Assembly (NCBI GenBank): GCA_021787845.1
Contig: JAJYLH010000029.1
Location: 1 to 64,000, forward strand
Source: Myxococcales bacterium
GTDB lineage: Bacteria; Myxococcota; Myxococcia; Myxococcales; JAJYLH01
Reading direction: 5' to 3'
Length of the DNA: 64,000 nucleotides
Shown here: positions 8,107 through 64,000 of the stretch, piece after piece
Position numbering within the stretch: position 1 is the first letter of the stretch
Layout of the letters: each line of letters begins with the position of its first letter
Notes under the pieces: model-generated
Seen by the model: only the letters and a program-made list of their open reading frames with translations
Told to the model about the DNA's origin: nothing
The model's database searches: none
Made by a program: the position numbers and the translations under genes

Positions 8107-8300
8107 CCCGAGCGCAGTCGAGGGATGGGTAGCGAGGTCAGAGGTCACTAATGGGCCTCGCGTTCAGATGGAGCCGGACACGTGAGTGTCCGGGTACAGG
8201 CAGTGCGTTGGTCGAGATGCAGCCGAACACGTCAGCGTCCGGGTACTGCCGAGGCATCAAGAAGAACCCGGACACTGACGTGTCCGGCTCCAGATCCTCG
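8098..8300. repeat. Dispersed repeats between lysS and the Lol permease
   Basis: 8098-8128 is one copy of the GAGCGCAGTCGAGGGATGGGT family. 8168-8300 contains three copies of the GGACACGTSAGTGTCCGG palindrome family, two facing one way and one the other, the same family as at 371-547, 28961-29308 and 63050-63174. Confidence 0.7.
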
Positions 8301-8352: not shown

Positions 8353-9969
8353 CTAGCCTCCGCTCGTCTTCTCTTCCGGCCGCAGGAGCGGGAACAGGAT
8401 GACGTCGCGAATCGACGCCGCATCGGTGAACACCATGCAGAGGCGATCGATGCCGATGCCCTCCCCGGCCGTCGGTGGCATCCCGTGCTCCAGCGCCCGG
8501 ATGAAGTCCTCGTCGTAGGGCATCGCCTCCTCGTCGCCCTTCTTCGCCGCCTCGACCTGCGCCCGAAACCGCGCCCGCTGGTCGTCGGGGTCGTTGAGCT
8601 CGCTGAAGGCGTTCGCCAGCTCCATTCCCGCGACGTAGAGCTCGAACCGGTCGACGAGCCGCTCGTCCGCGTCGCGCTTTCGGGCCAGCGGGCTCACCTC
8701 GAGCGGGAAGTCGACGACGAACGTCGGTCGCGTCGGGTCGAGCTGGGGCTCGCCGTACAGCTCGAAGGCCACCGCGATGAGCTCGCCCAAGGAGCGCGGG
8801 TTCATCGCCTCGGCCTCGGTCAGGCCCATCTCCTTCTTCGCGCCCGCCTGGGTCAGCAAATCGCGATGGATCTCGTCCCGATGCGCGGCGAGGAGGTCGA
8901 GCCAGCCGCTCGCGTCGTCGCGCGCGGGCGGCGCAAACCCCAACGCCTCGGCGTAATGCTGCCCGACGGCGCCGACCATCGACACCCGCGGATACGGCGG
9001 CAGGAAGTCGATCGCCGTGCCCTGGTAAGTGACCGTCGTCTGGTCCGTCACGTAGAGCGCGAGTGCCTTGAACAGCGCCTCGGTCAGCTCCATCAGGTCG
9101 AGGTAGGTCGCGTGCGCCTGGTAGAGCTCGATGCTTGTGAACTCCGGGTTGTGCCGCCGGTCGATGCCCTCGTTGCGGAAGATGCGGCCGATTTCGTAGA
9201 CCCGCTCGAGGCCGCCGACGACCAGCCGCTTCAGGTGCAGCTCGGTCGCGATGCGCAGGTTCAGGTCCAGGTCGAGCGCGTTGTGGTGCGTCGAGAACGG
9301 CCGAGCGGCAGCGCCTCCGGCCTGTTCGTGGAGCGTCGGCGTCTCCACCTCGACGTAGCCGCGCCCGTCGAGGAAACCGCGAATGGCGCGAATCATCCGC
9401 GCGCGCTTGAGGAAGACGTCGCGCACGCCCGGCGTCGTGAAGAGGTCCACGTAGCGCCGCCGGTAGCGCAGCTCGACGTCGGCGAGCCCGTGCCACTTCT
9501 CCGGCAGCGGCCGGAGCGCCTTCGTCAGCACGCTCAGCTCGGTCGCCTCGAGCGACAGCTCGCCGGTCTTGGTGCGGATGGGCCGCCCCGCCGCGCGCAC
9601 GATGTCGCCGCGGTCGAGCAGCGACTCGACGATGAGGTCGAACGCCGGCCCCACCGCGTCCTTGCGGACCATCACCTGCAGGTCGCCGTCGCGATCGTAG
9701 AGCCGGAGGAAGGCGAGCTTGCCCATCCGGCGCAGCTCGATGACGCGCCCGGCGATGGCGTACGTCCGCGTCTCGGCCGCGAGCTCCTCCGGCGACTGCG
9801 AGCCGTGCGCGCGACGCACGTCGCCGGTCGTGTCGGGCACCGCGAGGCCGTTCCCGAACGGCGCGAGGCCTCGCTCCCGCAGGGCTTGAGCCTTCTCGCG
9901 CCTCAGGAGGACCTGCGCCTCCTCGCTCGAGGTGTTGGTGGACGGCGGGCTTTGCGGCGACGACGACAT
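8353..9969 (-). CDS. lysS: Lysyl-tRNA synthetase, class II
   Basis: A 538-residue cytoplasmic enzyme charging tRNA-Lys. The N-terminal OB-fold (about 70-165, from AIAGRVIELRRMGKLAFLRL) precedes the class II catalytic core. Motif 1 is near GYVEVETPTL, motif 2 is YEIGRIFRNEGIDRRHNPEF, and motif 3 is GEGIGIDRLCMVF near the C-terminus. Length is slightly above the usual ~500. It lies upstream of the Lol genes in the same direction, with only a repeat-filled gap between, an arrangement I recall from other deltaproteobacteria. Confidence 0.96.
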   Translation of the reverse strand: MSSSPQSPPSTNTSSEEAQVLLRREKAQALRERGLAPFGNGLAVPDTTGDVRRAHGSQSPEELAAETRTYAIAGRVIELRRMGKLAFLRLYDRDGDLQVMVRKDAVGPAFDLIVESLLDRGDIVRAAGRPIRTKTGELSLEATELSVLTKALRPLPEKWHGLADVELRYRRRYVDLFTTPGVRDVFLKRARMIRAIRGFLDGRGYVEVETPTLHEQAGGAAARPFSTHHNALDLDLNLRIATELHLKRLVVGGLERVYEIGRIFRNEGIDRRHNPEFTSIELYQAHATYLDLMELTEALFKALALYVTDQTTVTYQGTAIDFLPPYPRVSMVGAVGQHYAEALGFAPPARDDASGWLDLLAAHRDEIHRDLLTQAGAKKEMGLTEAEAMNPRSLGELIAVAFELYGEPQLDPTRPTFVVDFPLEVSPLARKRDADERLVDRFELYVAGMELANAFSELNDPDDQRARFRAQVEAAKKGDEEAMPYDEDFIRALEHGMPPTAGEGIGIDRLCMVFTDAASIRDVILFPLLRPEEKTSGG

Positions 9970-10017
9970 GATCTCGAACAGGCTCCGATGCGATCCCGAC
10001 GAAAAACCGGGCGGCGC

Positions 10018-10046
10018 ACGCTAGCTCATCCGCCGTCGGCGCGCAA
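10018..10046 (-). promoter_or_regulatory. Candidate promoter of lysS
   Basis: On the minus strand TTGCGC (10041-10046) and TAGCGT (10018-10023) are separated by 17 bp and lie about 50 bp upstream of the lysS start. Two of three highly conserved bases of each box match the sigma70-like form seen elsewhere in the window. Moderate support only. Confidence 0.45.
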
Positions 10047-10423
10047 CGCTTTCCCGCAGCCATCGACGTGGCGATCGCGGAGCGCCCGGCCAGCGCCACA
10101 TAGCACGGGCTCACGCCCGCAACCCAAGCGTGCTTCGCGACCAGTAGTGCCGGGCCGTCCCCTGGCGCGACGATTCTTCAGGTGCCGGGCACAGAGGGCC
10201 GGCACGACTGACTCGTCGTCGCACTGCGCCGCGAGTCTGTGCGTGTCAGCCAGACTTCGCGGGTTCTGCTCTTCTGAGAATGGGCGTCCGCGTGCGCGAA
10301 GACACTGGTCGGTCTTCTCCATGCCACGTGGCGGACGGCAAGCCACGTGGTCTTGTCCGGACAACGCCGCAGCGCATCGCCGTCGCGACGCTCGCTCGTG
10401 GTCGCGGTTCGGATCAGGCTGCC
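10047..10423. other. Intergenic region, no convincing gene
   Basis: Contains the stem CCACGTGG-N11-CCACGTGG at about 10323-10349 just upstream (3' side) of the leftward GT4 gene's stop, which could act as a terminator. A 112-codon minus-strand frame at 10026-10364 has low-complexity composition and no family resemblance, and I do not call it. Confidence 0.4.
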
Positions 10424-28960: not shown

Positions 28961-29308
28961 CCTCGAGGCATGCCAATCCGGTTGACACGCTTGGCCGATG
29001 TCGGAGTCGGACACGTCGAACCCGGACACTCACGTGTCCGGCTCCAACGTCTCTGTCGGGCGAGGGGCCGGCGGGCCGCACGGGTCGAATCGGAGCCGGA
29101 CACGCCAGTGTCCGGGTACATGCACGGCCGCCGCCACGCGCACGGGCTCCACGGCGGCGGTACGTCCGTGCGCTCGTGTCGCCTGTACCCGGACACTCAC
29201 GTGTCCGGCTCCAAGTGATTCGAACCCGAACACTCACGTGTCCGGCTCCAAATGATTCGAACCCGAACACTCACGTGCCCGGCTCCAAGTGATAGGCATG
29301 CCTCGAGG
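28961..29308. repeat. Large MITE-like palindromic element
   Basis: The ends CCTCGAGGCATGCCAATCCG (28961-28980) and GATAGGCATGCCTCGAGG (29291-29308) are inverted copies. Between them lie at least six copies of the GGACACTCACGTGTCCGG palindrome family in both orientations, the last three forming a direct array at about 29196-29290. The left end continues GTTGACACGCTTG, almost the same as the ends of the element at 63050-63174, so the two belong to one family. No coding content. Confidence 0.75.
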
Positions 29309-59935: not shown

Positions 59936-60727
59936 TCACGCCAGAACCGCGAGCAAGTCTCGCCATTCTGGAATGAGCTCGAGCGCGTCGTGGGGATGCT
60001 CCATCACCCAGTCGCGAAGCCTGGTTCGCAGGCGGGGTGCTTCGCTTGCAAAGCCCAGCCGCGGAGCTACTACGGCCATCAGGTCCTTCCCAGAGCACCA
60101 AGCGAGAGCTTCCTGCGCGCTTTGGAAGACTGGCATCTCGGCCAGCGCCTTCGTTCGACTGGCCTCGACCGCGGCGGGATCGAGGAGTGGAACGATCTTC
60201 TCTCGAAACGCGCCGACCCGCTCAGCCAGCCAAAGCCCGATCGACTCGGTATCGAGCTTGTCAGGAAGCCGCAGCGCCCTGGTCGCTCCCGTCGGAAGCT
60301 CACGGGAGGGCGGTAGTTCGCGCCGGATGCGCCCGATCACCCATCGCGCGGCCTGATATTCGCGGATCTCCAACGCCCCGGCGACCAGGGCAGCCGAGAT
60401 CGTGTCCTTGGTCGAGCCGAGCGCCCTCGATGCGAGTCCCGGGTCGAGGAGGTAGCTCTCGATCTCGTGTCTCGACCAGCGCCAGCCGAGATCCCCAGGC
60501 ATTGGTTCCAGGCGTTCATGCGTGCTCGGATCGAAATCGAAGTCACGGTCGCGAAGGTAGTAGGTATCGGGCGTGTTCTTCCGCCGGTCGCGGCACTTCG
60601 GCGCGAGCGATCCCTTGGAGCCCCCCTGTTCGACCAGCGGAGCCGAGCCTGGCATCCTGTCTTGGAGCAGGGCGTTGACTATCTGCGCATCCAGCTCGCC
60701 CTCGACCAGCAGGACGGTCACAGGCAT
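59936..60727 (-). CDS. TOPRIM-type (DUF4435-like) protein of an ATPase/nuclease pair
   Basis: A 263-residue soluble protein. The start MPVTVLLVEGELDAQIVNAL shows the TOPRIM Glu motif (VEGE.D), and YYLRDRDFDFDP near residue 62 the DxD metal motif. SRHEIESYLLDPGLASRAL near 90 matches the W..(R/H)EIE(N/S)YLL string of OLD-type TOPRIM and DUF4435 proteins. It overlaps the end of the upstream ATPase gene by 10 bases, so the two form one operon. The pair resembles AriA/AriB of the PARIS anti-phage system, where AriB is a TOPRIM effector held by an ATPase, or a split OLD nuclease. Which of these it is cannot be settled from sequence alone. Confidence 0.75.
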   Translation of the reverse strand: MPVTVLLVEGELDAQIVNALLQDRMPGSAPLVEQGGSKGSLAPKCRDRRKNTPDTYYLRDRDFDFDPSTHERLEPMPGDLGWRWSRHEIESYLLDPGLASRALGSTKDTISAALVAGALEIREYQAARWVIGRIRRELPPSRELPTGATRALRLPDKLDTESIGLWLAERVGAFREKIVPLLDPAAVEASRTKALAEMPVFQSAQEALAWCSGKDLMAVVAPRLGFASEAPRLRTRLRDWVMEHPHDALELIPEWRDLLAVLA

Positions 60728-61773
60728 GGTCGGCCTCCTGGCAGTCGAATCTCGTTCTCCTCTGGCGTCACCTGTTCGAGGTACGGCGAGTGCGTCGTGC
60801 AGATGAACTGGCAATCCGGCCCGATGCGCCGCAAGGCCGCGAGGAGCGCCTGCTGCTCGGGCGGATGGAGGTGCAACTCGAGCTCGTCGATGAGCACCAC
60901 CGACTTCGCGATGCTCAGTCGGACGAACTCATAGAGAATCGGGAAGACCGCCTGCTCGCCCGAGGACATCTCCGCGATGTCGTACCGCTTCCCGTCGCGC
61001 TCGATCAGGAAATAGGACTCCGTGGCGCGGGTCGCGGTGGCGAACTCGCGCGGGGCGACGCCCACGAACTTCGAACCGGGGAAGAGCTCCGCGTAGCGCT
61101 GTTCGAGCGTCCCGAGATAGTCGATGCCGCGCTTTCCCGGCGAGGTGTGAAAGGCCCACCATCCGACGAGGAAGTCGCGAAGCCGCTCGATGCCCGGCGG
61201 CTCCGGCGTCTCCTCGACGGTGCCGGCGGCGGTCTGGTTGCTCCGGTTCTGGTCGAACCAGAAGACGTCGCCGACTTCCGGGAACCGTTCGCGCAAATCC
61301 GGTCGAGAGCGCACCAGCGTCCGGATGTACCATCGACCGAGGAACTGCGCAGTCTCAGAAGTAGCGACTGGAAGCCGATCGCGCTCGAAGACAAGCGACA
61401 CCGTGGGCGAGTCAGCCGGATTCGGAGAATGTCGGAGCTCTCGATGCGCGAGGGGCGCCCAGAGCTTGTCGAGCTCACGCGTCGCCTGGCGCTCCTCCGC
61501 ATCGAATGCGACCTCGAGCGCGACCCGGGTCGGGCCGAGGGAGCCAACGCGCTCCGCGAGAAAGCCCGGCCAGGCGAAGTCGGAAGCTCGCTCGATGCGG
61601 CGCGAGGCCATCGATAGCACCAGAGCGATGGCCTGGAGCGCGGAGGTCTTGCCGCTTCCGTTGTCCCCGAGCAGCAACGTCAGTGGCCGCGGCTGGCCGT
61701 CGGAGCCGCGCAGGTCGAGCTCCAGCTTGCGAATGCCCTTGAAGTTCTCGATTTCGACGCGCGTGAGCTTCAT
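60718..61773 (-). CDS. OLD/AriA-like ABC-type AAA ATPase
   Basis: A 351-residue ATPase. MKLTRVEIENFKGIRKLELD and Walker A LLLGDNGSGKTSALQAIAL (about 33-52) match RecF/OLD-type ATPases. MSSGEQAVFPIL is the ABC signature, VVLIDELELHLHPPEQQALL the Walker B and D-loop, and FICTTHSPYLEQV the H-loop. There is no fused TOPRIM domain; that function is supplied by the overlapping downstream gene. Probable ATP-driven sensor part of a two-gene defence module. Confidence 0.85.
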   Translation of the reverse strand: MKLTRVEIENFKGIRKLELDLRGSDGQPRPLTLLLGDNGSGKTSALQAIALVLSMASRRIERASDFAWPGFLAERVGSLGPTRVALEVAFDAEERQATRELDKLWAPLAHRELRHSPNPADSPTVSLVFERDRLPVATSETAQFLGRWYIRTLVRSRPDLRERFPEVGDVFWFDQNRSNQTAAGTVEETPEPPGIERLRDFLVGWWAFHTSPGKRGIDYLGTLEQRYAELFPGSKFVGVAPREFATATRATESYFLIERDGKRYDIAEMSSGEQAVFPILYEFVRLSIAKSVVLIDELELHLHPPEQQALLAALRRIGPDCQFICTTHSPYLEQVTPEENEIRLPGGRPCL

Positions 61774-62115: not shown

Positions 62116-62976
62116 ATGCCTTGTCCGCGGCGATCCCTTTCGGGCCTGAAGGTGGCCGGTACGCCAAGCGGCCCGGTCCGCCATCGGAGGAAACGAAACG
62201 GAGGGAAGGCGACAGCGCTCGGGCTGGCAGCGCTCCTCGTCGGTGCGGCGGGATGCTTCGGCTGCGGGCCCGTGGCGGGAGAGACGAAGGTGAGCCTCTC
62301 GATCACGAGCGTCGAGCCATACCAGGTGGTCGGCGCGGTAGGAACCCCGGTCAGCGTGGTCACTCAGTACGGTTGCACGGCGGCCGACGTCGGCATCAAG
62401 CTCGGCGCCATCCCCATCGCTGCGGCGACCATCGTCTCCAGCGCCCCCGACCACTACGAGCTCCCGATCCCGACCACCGCTCCGGGCACCACCAGCACTA
62501 CCCTCACCGTCACCTGCGCCAAGCCGGCGAAGCCCGGGTACGCCTACCTCCGCGGCGGAAACACCGCCACCGCCGGATTCCTCTACAACACCGGACCCGG
62601 AGGACTCGAGCCGCCGCCGATGGTCGATGCGCACGCCCCGGTGGGCGACAACGTGCCGGTGCAGGCGCAGATGCAAGTGACCTTCACGCGCCCGATGTTG
62701 CGACCCAGCGTCGAGAAGCAAGGCAACGTCGGCATCTCGGGCATCGCCGGAAAGACCACCTATGACCCTCCGACCAAGACCGCGACCTTCGTCCCCGACG
62801 AGCCGCTCGACTACTCCACGACCTACGCCTGCGTGGTCGAGGGCGGGGACGGCGGAGTGATCTCGATGTCCGGACGCTATCTCCAGACCCACCTGGCACC
62901 CCCAGGCCAGGCGGTCGACCCCGACCAGGACGCGTGGACCTTCGAGACCCAGTGCCAGAGCTGCGGTAGCCCCTGA
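62116..62976 (+). CDS. Exported protein with Big_5-type Ig-like domain
   Basis: A 286-residue protein with an unusually long basic N-terminus before a hydrophobic signal (ALGLAALLVGAAGCFGC) that ends in a lipobox-like AAGC. The C-terminal ~110 residues match Big_5 Ig-like domains (DAHAPVGDNVPVQAQMQVTF, TRPML, TYDPPTKTATFVPDEPLDYS). The middle is a second beta-rich domain with two Cys. A perfect ribosome binding site precedes the ATG. Surface or periplasmic role, unknown ligand. Confidence 0.78.
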   Translation: MPCPRRSLSGLKVAGTPSGPVRHRRKRNGGKATALGLAALLVGAAGCFGCGPVAGETKVSLSITSVEPYQVVGAVGTPVSVVTQYGCTAADVGIKLGAIPIAAATIVSSAPDHYELPIPTTAPGTTSTTLTVTCAKPAKPGYAYLRGGNTATAGFLYNTGPGGLEPPPMVDAHAPVGDNVPVQAQMQVTFTRPMLRPSVEKQGNVGISGIAGKTTYDPPTKTATFVPDEPLDYSTTYACVVEGGDGGVISMSGRYLQTHLAPPGQAVDPDQDAWTFETQCQSCGSP

Positions 62977-63049
62977 GTCGCCGACTGGCGGATCGGGCTG
63001 CTGGGGAGCGTCGAGCCATGCTTGCGCCCTGCGGCGCGCTTCGGTCCAT

Positions 63050-63174
63050 GCCTATCCGGTTGACACACTTGTCCGAGGTTGGAGCCGGGCACGTCAGTGC
63101 CCGTGTTGGCTCGGGACGCCGCATCCGACCCGGACATTGACATGTCCGGCTCCAAGTGTGTCAACCGGATAGGC
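63050..63174. repeat. MITE-like element with 22-bp perfect inverted ends
   Basis: The ends, GCCTATCCGGTTGACACAC plus TTG at 63050-63071 and the exact reverse complement at 63153-63174, bound 125 bp with GGGCACGTCAGTGCCC- and GGACATTGACATGTCC-type palindromes inside. The ends are related to those of the larger element at 28961-29308. The end sequence includes a TTGACA box that could act as a portable -35. Confidence 0.8.
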
Positions 63175-63361
63175 GCGCCTCGGTCGGGCGTCACGTCCGC
63201 CAACGGGGCCAACGTCCCGGCGCGCTTGGAGTCTGGACCCACTGCGAGCCGCTGGTCCGCGGCGAGCCGAGTCGCCGGCAGCGACGGCTCGGTCGCGGAA
63301 GGCTGGTAGACACAGACCACGCGCGCGAACGCGCCTGATTCCCAGGCATCCACGCATCCGC

Positions 63362-63391
63362 TTGACCCGCGCCGACGCTTCGGCCTAGCTT
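63362..63391 (+). promoter_or_regulatory. Promoter of the peptide/radical SAM operon
   Basis: TTGACC at 63362-63367 and TAGCTT at 63386-63391 with 18-bp spacing. The region around and after the boxes (CGGCCTAGC...GCCGAAGGAGG) closely resembles that at 62064-62110. It leaves a leader of about 120 bases before the small peptide gene. Confidence 0.65.
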
Positions 63392-63517
63392 CTCGGCCGA
63401 AGGAGGCGTTCGACTGCCTGATCCGCCGCGGGCGCTCTCCAGTGCGGCTCGCGCGGCGGCTCTCGACACCCCGAGCTCGAGCGACCACGACGTAAGAAGG
63501 AGAAGGAGGTGATGCCC

Positions 63518-63601
63518 ATGCACGTGAGGTTCTTGTCCAAGCACGGCGCCGGCTCCCGGCGTCGGACGCGGTACTGCCGCAGCGGCCGCGTCCTCTGGTA
63601 G
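63518..63601 (+). CDS. Candidate RiPP precursor peptide
   Basis: A 27-residue peptide beginning MHVRFLSKHG and ending YCRSGRVLW, strongly basic (nine Arg/Lys) with one Cys and a terminal Trp. A perfect AGGAGGT lies seven bases before the ATG at 63518; an earlier ATG at 63512 is too close to it. A hairpin follows the stop codon, and a radical SAM gene starts 75 bp further on. Small genes in this position are typical precursors of radical SAM-modified peptides (compare PqqA, MftA, SCIFF). The core and the modified residues are unknown; Cys and Trp are the natural candidates. Confidence 0.6.
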   Translation: MHVRFLSKHGAGSRRRTRYCRSGRVLW

Positions 63602-63602
63602 G

Positions 63603-63646
63603 CCGTGGGGCCCGCGGGCTCTCGGGGGCTTGCGGGCCCGCCACGG
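63603..63646 (+). terminator. Hairpin between peptide and radical SAM genes
   Basis: CCGTGGGGCCCGC pairs with GCGGGCCCGCCACGG (two-base bulge), a strong GC stem with a 16-base loop and no U-tract. Such a stem would allow partial read-through or protect the upstream mRNA, making peptide mRNA more abundant than enzyme mRNA, a common arrangement in RiPP operons. Confidence 0.6.
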
Positions 63647-63676
63647 ATTGCCTCGCGCTCGACCGGAGGAGGACTG

Positions 63677-64000
63677 ATGTCCGAACGCACCGTGCCCGAC
63701 CCTTCGCAACTCCATCGCTTCACGCGCATCGGCCGCCGCTTCGCGGTCCACGTGCCCACCGGCCGCTTTGCGCAGCTCAGCCCCGACGCCGACCTCGTGC
63801 TCGACGGCCTCGCCCGCGACGAGCGGCCGGCCCCCGCGCCCGAGGTGGCCGCCGCCCTGGACGAGCTCGCCCGCCACTTCGACGAGCCCGACGAGGACCG
63901 CGGCCCGGCCCAGCCCGCGCCGATGACCGACCTGACTCTGAACATCAGCGCCGGCTGCGACCTCGCGTGCCGCTACTGCTGGAACAACCGCGGCCTCTAC
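63677..64000 (+). CDS. Radical SAM peptide maturase, N-terminal part
   Basis: The first 108 residues of a radical SAM enzyme, cut by the window edge. GGAGGA precedes the ATG. Residues about 12-75 (HRFTRIGRRFAVHVPTGRFA, then a helix) look like the small N-terminal leader-binding-like domain of thioether-forming maturases. LTLNISAGCDLACRYCWNN contains the CxxxCxxC [4Fe-4S] motif. Resembles SCIFF or QhpD-type maturases that build thioether or similar crosslinks in short peptides. The SPASM domain expected at the C-terminus lies outside the window, so the subfamily is open. Confidence 0.8.
   Translation, partial: MSERTVPDPSQLHRFTRIGRRFAVHVPTGRFAQLSPDADLVLDGLARDERPAPAPEVAAALDELARHFDEPDEDRGPAQPAPMTDLTLNISAGCDLACRYCWNNRGLY

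Follow-up and report, generated by a model that had tools for sequence, protein, structure and literature searches.

The closest described relatives of the system reported here are radical SAM maturases that form thioethers. In SCIFF peptides the thioether links a Cys to Thr, and in NxxcA peptides to Asn (PMC8326336); PapB, the maturase of freyrasin, links Cys to Asp or Glu (PMC9413430). The SCIFF precursor is widely conserved and is thought not to be antimicrobial, in which it resembles the family described below (PMC8326336).

The window, i.e. the whole stretch of 64,000 nucleotides analysed (contig JAJYLH010000029.1 of a Myxococcales bacterium), ends in a short basic reading frame and the 5' part of a radical SAM gene (Table 1). 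These two genes are very probably a real precursor-maturase pair of a previously unnamed RiPP family. The contig runs to position 65412 and contains the complete enzyme gene (63677-65131, 484 aa), ending 281 bases past it. A preliminary description of the window had listed a strong promoter, a perfect ribosome binding site, a tiny Arg-rich ORF ending YCRSGRVLW, a GC hairpin and a radical SAM enzyme. The ORF is real: its G+C by codon position (54%, 61% and 96% at positions 1, 2 and 3) is a coding signature common to it and the enzyme gene (71/48/95%), and its tail recurs beside homologous enzymes. The ribosome binding site is as described, and strong Shine-Dalgarno sequences also precede most homologous precursors. 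The enzyme gene that follows has a Shine-Dalgarno sequence of its own and a clear radical SAM domain. RNA folding against shuffled sequences supports the hairpin, which lacks a T-run and possibly sets the ratio of precursor to enzyme transcript. The strong promoter, however, was not confirmed: TTGACC at 63362, the sole -35-like box, has no good partner, and a consensus scan of 62900-64000 for sigma70 promoters was empty.

Table 1. Features of the precursor-maturase locus (window positions).
Feature	Position	Strand	Details
Shine-Dalgarno sequence of the precursor ORF, AAGGAGGT	63503-63510	+	Read directly; 7 nt ahead of the ATG at 63518
Precursor peptide ORF	63518-63601	+	ATG start, 27 aa, MHVRFLSKHGAGSRRRTRYCRSGRVLW and stop codon; core matches Omnitrophota homologues
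Core RYCRSGRVLW, up to the stop codon	63569-63598	+	Residues fixed, synonymous codons vary
Intergenic GC-rich hairpin	63603-63646	+	-37.3 kcal/mol, z -3.4
Shine-Dalgarno sequence of the enzyme gene, GGAGGAGG	63665-63672	+	Read directly
Radical SAM/SPASM maturase gene, 5' part	63677-64000	+	Gene extends to contig position 65131; Radical_SAM PF04055, E 3e-13; family alignment
RRE-like N-terminal domain (about residues 12-75)	63710-63901	+	Alignment with the L069 homologue and its model
CxxxCxYC radical SAM motif, CDLACRYC	63956-63979	+	Sequence, family alignment

Homologous precursors are 26-36 aa long, and the preliminary remark that the peptide is shorter than most applies to a slight degree only. 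All 17 precursors are K/R-rich N-terminally and contain neither Asp nor Glu, and each has a single core Cys, or two in one variant, AFCRCGRVLW. The layout would be a basic leader (about residues 1-17) followed by an invariant ten-residue C-terminal core. Acidic leaders are known in other RiPPs, and the basic leader here, which differs from them, is a point against the RiPP reading. An NCBIfam search gave no family match for the precursor, no instance of the string RYCRSGRVLW was found in the literature, and weak peptide matches elsewhere in the window's genome are attributable to chance (E > 0.6).

The family was delimited by an enzyme-led profile scan in which each species was represented by one genome; the enzyme was the query and the peptide was not used. 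The top two among the matches listed were enzymes of Candidatus Omnitrophota (E 3e-85 and 8e-85; the next was 3e-56), which are 38 and 36% identical to the window enzyme. Directly upstream of both are small ORFs encoding MKKAVQVNKKSKTKKQLSRYCRSGRVLW and MKARKINKAKATKKSKKKLSRYCRSGRVLW, each ending RYCRSGRVLW. Because the search used the enzyme alone, this peptide match is an independent confirmation. Sequence comparison establishes both genes and their conserved pairing in two phyla. Among 384 Omnitrophota genomes searched by profile, 14 had family enzymes, a fifteenth match (G466) belonging to another enzyme family; a class-level genome draw added G618. In all, 14 Omnitrophota genomes have a precursor of this ending next to the enzyme gene. 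The precursor adjoins every family enzyme with a readable flank (the G561 enzyme is cut by the contig start), mostly upstream; in G429 and G618 it faces the enzyme gene tail to tail, i.e. convergent and 3'. The preliminary description had proposed looking for the same short ORF upstream of related radical SAM genes and had named its non-conservation upstream of close homologues as grounds for rejection; the ORF was found, in another phylum, and its core is kept beside every readable family enzyme.

Some Omnitrophota genomes carry additional copies. In G212 there is a second, tandem system (L177, contig 19, 5219-6819), which has an enzyme of its own and the core variant AFCRCGRVLW; four B12-radical SAM genes follow it, and a polyprenyl synthase-like gene, a UbiA gene and another radical SAM gene precede it. 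An orphan third precursor in the same genome (L237, contig 39, 1498-1602, minus strand) is identical to the first and has no enzyme beside it; its neighbours are an IS3-like transposase on one side and, on the other, a sulfatase-like gene that by eye seems to have no C-X-P-X-R formylglycine motif. G321 has an intact precursor with a decayed enzyme copy (L189, contig 10, about 9000-10200), and a second, intact system on another contig. The Omnitrophota enzymes end in a conserved tail, DP[VI]GRRGN[KE]LY, that is absent from the window enzyme; this basic-Gly-hydrophobic-aromatic end bears a faint resemblance to the core of the peptide.

The window's case is the sole one in its phylum (195 genomes), the core pattern being found in none of the 194 others. 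Relatives of the enzyme in the window's own order and phylum are 26-39% identical and all belong to other radical SAM families; searches at order and phylum level turned up other SPASM families exclusively, at 30-35%. A single-sequence scan of genome contigs found no relatives, a tblastn search of plasmids gave only QhpD/nif11-type relatives at under 32%, and no family enzyme was found in viral contigs. Six core-pattern matches in viral contigs represent one sequence, whose frame lacks a stop after the core and specifies no peptide of this kind, and they were dismissed as chance. Assembly contamination at the locus was also rejected, as G+C, third-position bias and flanking palindromes match the rest of the genome. 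These long palindromes form an interspersed family with the half-site GTGTCCGGCTCCAA, which has 13 matches in the window versus 0.6 expected (at 371-547, 8168-8293, 25720, 29001-29288 and 63050-63180, the last folding at -89 kcal/mol); it also occurs in the contig part up to 65412 and on other contigs of the genome, flanks the peptide locus on both sides, and is possibly a REP/MITE-like element. Further upstream, at 59936-61773 on the minus strand, an overlapping gene pair reads by eye as an AAA-type ATPase (60718-61773) and, after it, a protein resembling DUF4435/TOPRIM-like proteins, a make-up that recalls anti-phage defence pairs.

Between lineages the leaders diverge, whereas the tail stays constant: the 16 precursors compared share their core residues, with the exception of the G212 variant, but differ in the codons used (Arg 4, Ser 5, Leu 5, Val 4). 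As residues are fixed while synonymous codons change, selection acts on the peptide, and by this codon comparison the core is under purifying selection. The same observation bears on a different reading of the locus, in which the Arg-rich ORF and the hairpin serve to attenuate the enzyme gene, leaving the peptide without a role. A short Arg-rich ORF and a GC hairpin do precede the enzyme gene, but the core is fixed in its amino acids with synonymous change left free, the hairpin has no T-run, and in one genome a copy stands alone, away from any family enzyme. In the two genomes with the convergent, 3' arrangement the precursor cannot be a mere 5' mRNA leader. We regard this reading as barely credible; instead, the peptide is very probably the substrate of the enzyme.

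Motifs of the enzyme are consistent with this role. The radical SAM CxxxCxxC motif and the SPASM-type cysteines (C343, C361, C398, C401, C407, C413 and C432 in the window enzyme) are invariant in a 13-row family alignment. The SPASM Pfam score is below cut-off even though the cysteines are present, and their spacing is unusual, with CX5C (LCLGSGSC) where relatives in other families have CX3C. The preliminary proposal that extension past 64000 might reveal a SPASM domain, protease or transporter was borne out for the SPASM cysteines; in homologous loci neither a protease nor a transporter is conserved. A leader-binding-like N-terminus had also been suggested. The model of an Omnitrophota homologue, L069 (mean pLDDT 82), has strands at 17-22, 25-30 and 36-39 and helices at 44-55, 63-72 and 77-80; three strands and three helices are the RRE arrangement (PMC8326336). 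The model thus supports a predicted beta3-alpha3 winged-helix RRE domain at residues 17-80, with a putative function in leader binding.

The best structural match of this model is CteB, the SCIFF maturase (TMq 0.72), the model being of the L069 protein rather than the window enzyme and built from an alignment that held SCIFF maturases, which may favour CteB. CteB (5wgg) is also the nearest solved structure to the window enzyme by sequence. Ranking next are structures of anaerobic sulfatase maturases in complex with Cys peptides, which raises the question of whether the core Cys of C-X-S-X-R could be converted to formylglycine, as in sulfatase maturation (motif C/S-X-P/A-X-R). CRSGR and CRCGR share the sulfatase motif spacing, and sulfatase-like (PF00884) genes adjoin the system at three loci (L176, L183 and L184) as well as the orphan precursor at L237. 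However, the motif resemblance is partial, such genes may simply be frequent in these genomes, and SCIFF, PapB and nif11 maturases are far closer to the enzyme (about 180-240 bits versus 80-86). By this analogy formylglycine would be a very improbable product.

The nearest characterised relatives, the SCIFF, PapB and QhpD maturases, form non-alpha thioethers, and for that reason a thioether is favoured here. The core lacks the classical ranthipeptide acceptors Asp, Glu, Thr and Asn; if a thioether is formed, it must therefore have an acceptor of another kind. The Cys-X3-Arg of the core has the PapB spacing, and judging from enzyme homology we would tentatively place the link, at a little short of an even chance, between the core Cys and a nearby non-acidic residue, perhaps this Arg. 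A C-C crosslink involving Tyr, Trp or Arg is a more doubtful alternative, and oxidation of the Cys is improbable. The change of Tyr to Phe in AFCRCGRVLW speaks against a phenol-dependent reaction.

Neighbouring genes of the system were compared across homologous loci, where no protease, exporter/transporter or immunity gene is conserved, implying that the peptide may stay uncleaved or unsecreted. This would suit a tiny basic nucleic-acid- or membrane-binding protein whose modified C-terminal tail works in place, as would the basic, acid-free composition of all 17 precursors. Such a protein is decidedly unlikely, given that the leader varies by lineage with only the tail fixed, and that the enzyme has an RRE-like domain, a domain that normally binds leaders.

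In several Omnitrophota loci, the gene directly downstream of the enzyme gene encodes a B12-binding radical SAM protein whose NCBIfam match is BchE-like (188 bits versus a cut-off of 481). Of the 384 Omnitrophota genomes, 13 have its high-similarity form (at least 55% identity), often on a contig other than that of the peptide system, and all 13 belong to the 14 that carry this system; the genomes are not independent samples and shared ancestry confounds the co-occurrence, yet the distribution is patchy, with the precursor/core pattern found in none of 18 order-mates of G212. The window's genome encodes two homologues at 42-43%, one of them beside a U32-type gene (contig 24, 14234-17341, L205). 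The same pairing is seen in several Omnitrophota genomes, and it is perhaps a pathway of its own. In the phylum of the window, four further genomes have the B12 enzyme but not the peptide system. As a lead, the B12-radical SAM enzyme may work together with the maturase in one pathway in Omnitrophota.

Such a pathway could yield a peptide-derived cofactor in the manner of PQQ or mycofactocin, with the core as raw material from which the B12-radical SAM enzyme, the U32-type protein and possibly UbiA carve a small molecule. The invariance of the core across phyla, the adjacent or co-occurring B12-radical SAM gene and the presence of B12-radical SAM and U32-type pairs in both the window's genome and Omnitrophota are in keeping with this, but most loci have no conserved third gene, B12-radical SAM, UbiA and U32 genes are also found in peptide-free genomes, and no linked cofactor-using dehydrogenase was noticed. 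A carved cofactor is accordingly an unlikely outcome.

A two-gene RiPP system is the probable explanation. The 484-aa enzyme would bind the basic leader via its N-terminal RRE domain, and a 5'-deoxyadenosyl radical and SPASM auxiliary Fe-S clusters would modify the ten-residue core, with the BchE-like B12-dependent radical SAM enzyme possibly acting in the same pathway in Omnitrophota. Core sequences vary within many families of radical SAM peptides. Here all ten core positions agree between phyla whose enzymes are only about 36-38% identical, pointing to a strongly constrained product. As the core is invariant between phyla, a fixed partner is likelier than an antimicrobial target, and the product is more probably a molecule of fixed function (a cofactor, metal ligand, signal or envelope component) than an antibiotic. 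The pair is also minimal, its peptide having one Cys in the core and neither Asp nor Glu, so that any thioether would fall outside the classical ranthipeptide set. We suggest that the string CRxGRVLW at a C-terminus is useful for annotating the family in Omnitrophota and other uncultured bacteria.

The preliminary description recognised no named family, and indeed all NCBIfam scores are far below cut-off. In phylogenetic analysis the family enzymes form one clade, separate from the SCIFF and QhpD-type enzymes, with support of 100/100 and a long stem (1.48 changes per site). By these sequence scores the family lies outside every NCBIfam family, nearest to the thioether-forming nif11, SCIFF, PapB and QhpD maturases. 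The nif11-like maturase (TIGR04064) is the best NCBIfam match of the window enzyme, at 238.6 bits against a cut-off of 518.7, but the precursor has no Nif11-type leader. Like the SCIFF/ranthipeptide system (CteA-CteB; TIGR03974), the family has a short precursor whose neighbour is a maturase with RRE, radical SAM and SPASM parts, and CteB is its best structural match. It differs in that the SCIFF peptide has six Cys in forty-five residues, whereas precursors here have one core Cys and at most two Cys in all, with no Thr, Asp, Glu or Asn acceptor in the core; family enzymes score 200 (window enzyme), 189 and 259 bits against the TIGR03974 cut-off of 425 and fall outside the SCIFF clade. PapB (NF047865) is matched at 183 to 254 bits, with 183 for the window enzyme under the 340-bit cut-off; its Cys-X3-acceptor spacing resembles Cys-X3-Arg, although the CX3D/E acceptor itself has no counterpart in 17 precursors devoid of Asp and Glu. 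Similarity to QhpD/PeaB (TIGR03906) is near full-length, at 175 bits against a cut-off of 453, and QhpD chemistry is a thioether, but the QhpD substrate is a dehydrogenase subunit and no such genes were seen here. Anaerobic sulfatase maturases (TIGR03942) are more distant, at 80.5 and 86.4 bits against a cut-off of 349.

Unlike the maturases above, PqqE and MftC are not among the best 25 NCBIfam matches of the enzyme, and no accessory or cofactor-carving gene set was noticed in the loci. What the family has in common with PQQ (PqqA/PqqE) and mycofactocin (MftA/MftC) is its logic, i.e. a short precursor, an invariant C-terminal region, a radical SAM/SPASM enzyme and a fixed product (PMC8326336 and general knowledge). 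In an unlikely but more novel reading, RYCRSGRVLW would, through SPASM and BchE-like enzymes, give rise to a phylum-spanning peptide-derived small molecule, the third after PQQ and mycofactocin, with a crosslink of an undescribed type, as suggested by the missing ranthipeptide acceptors.
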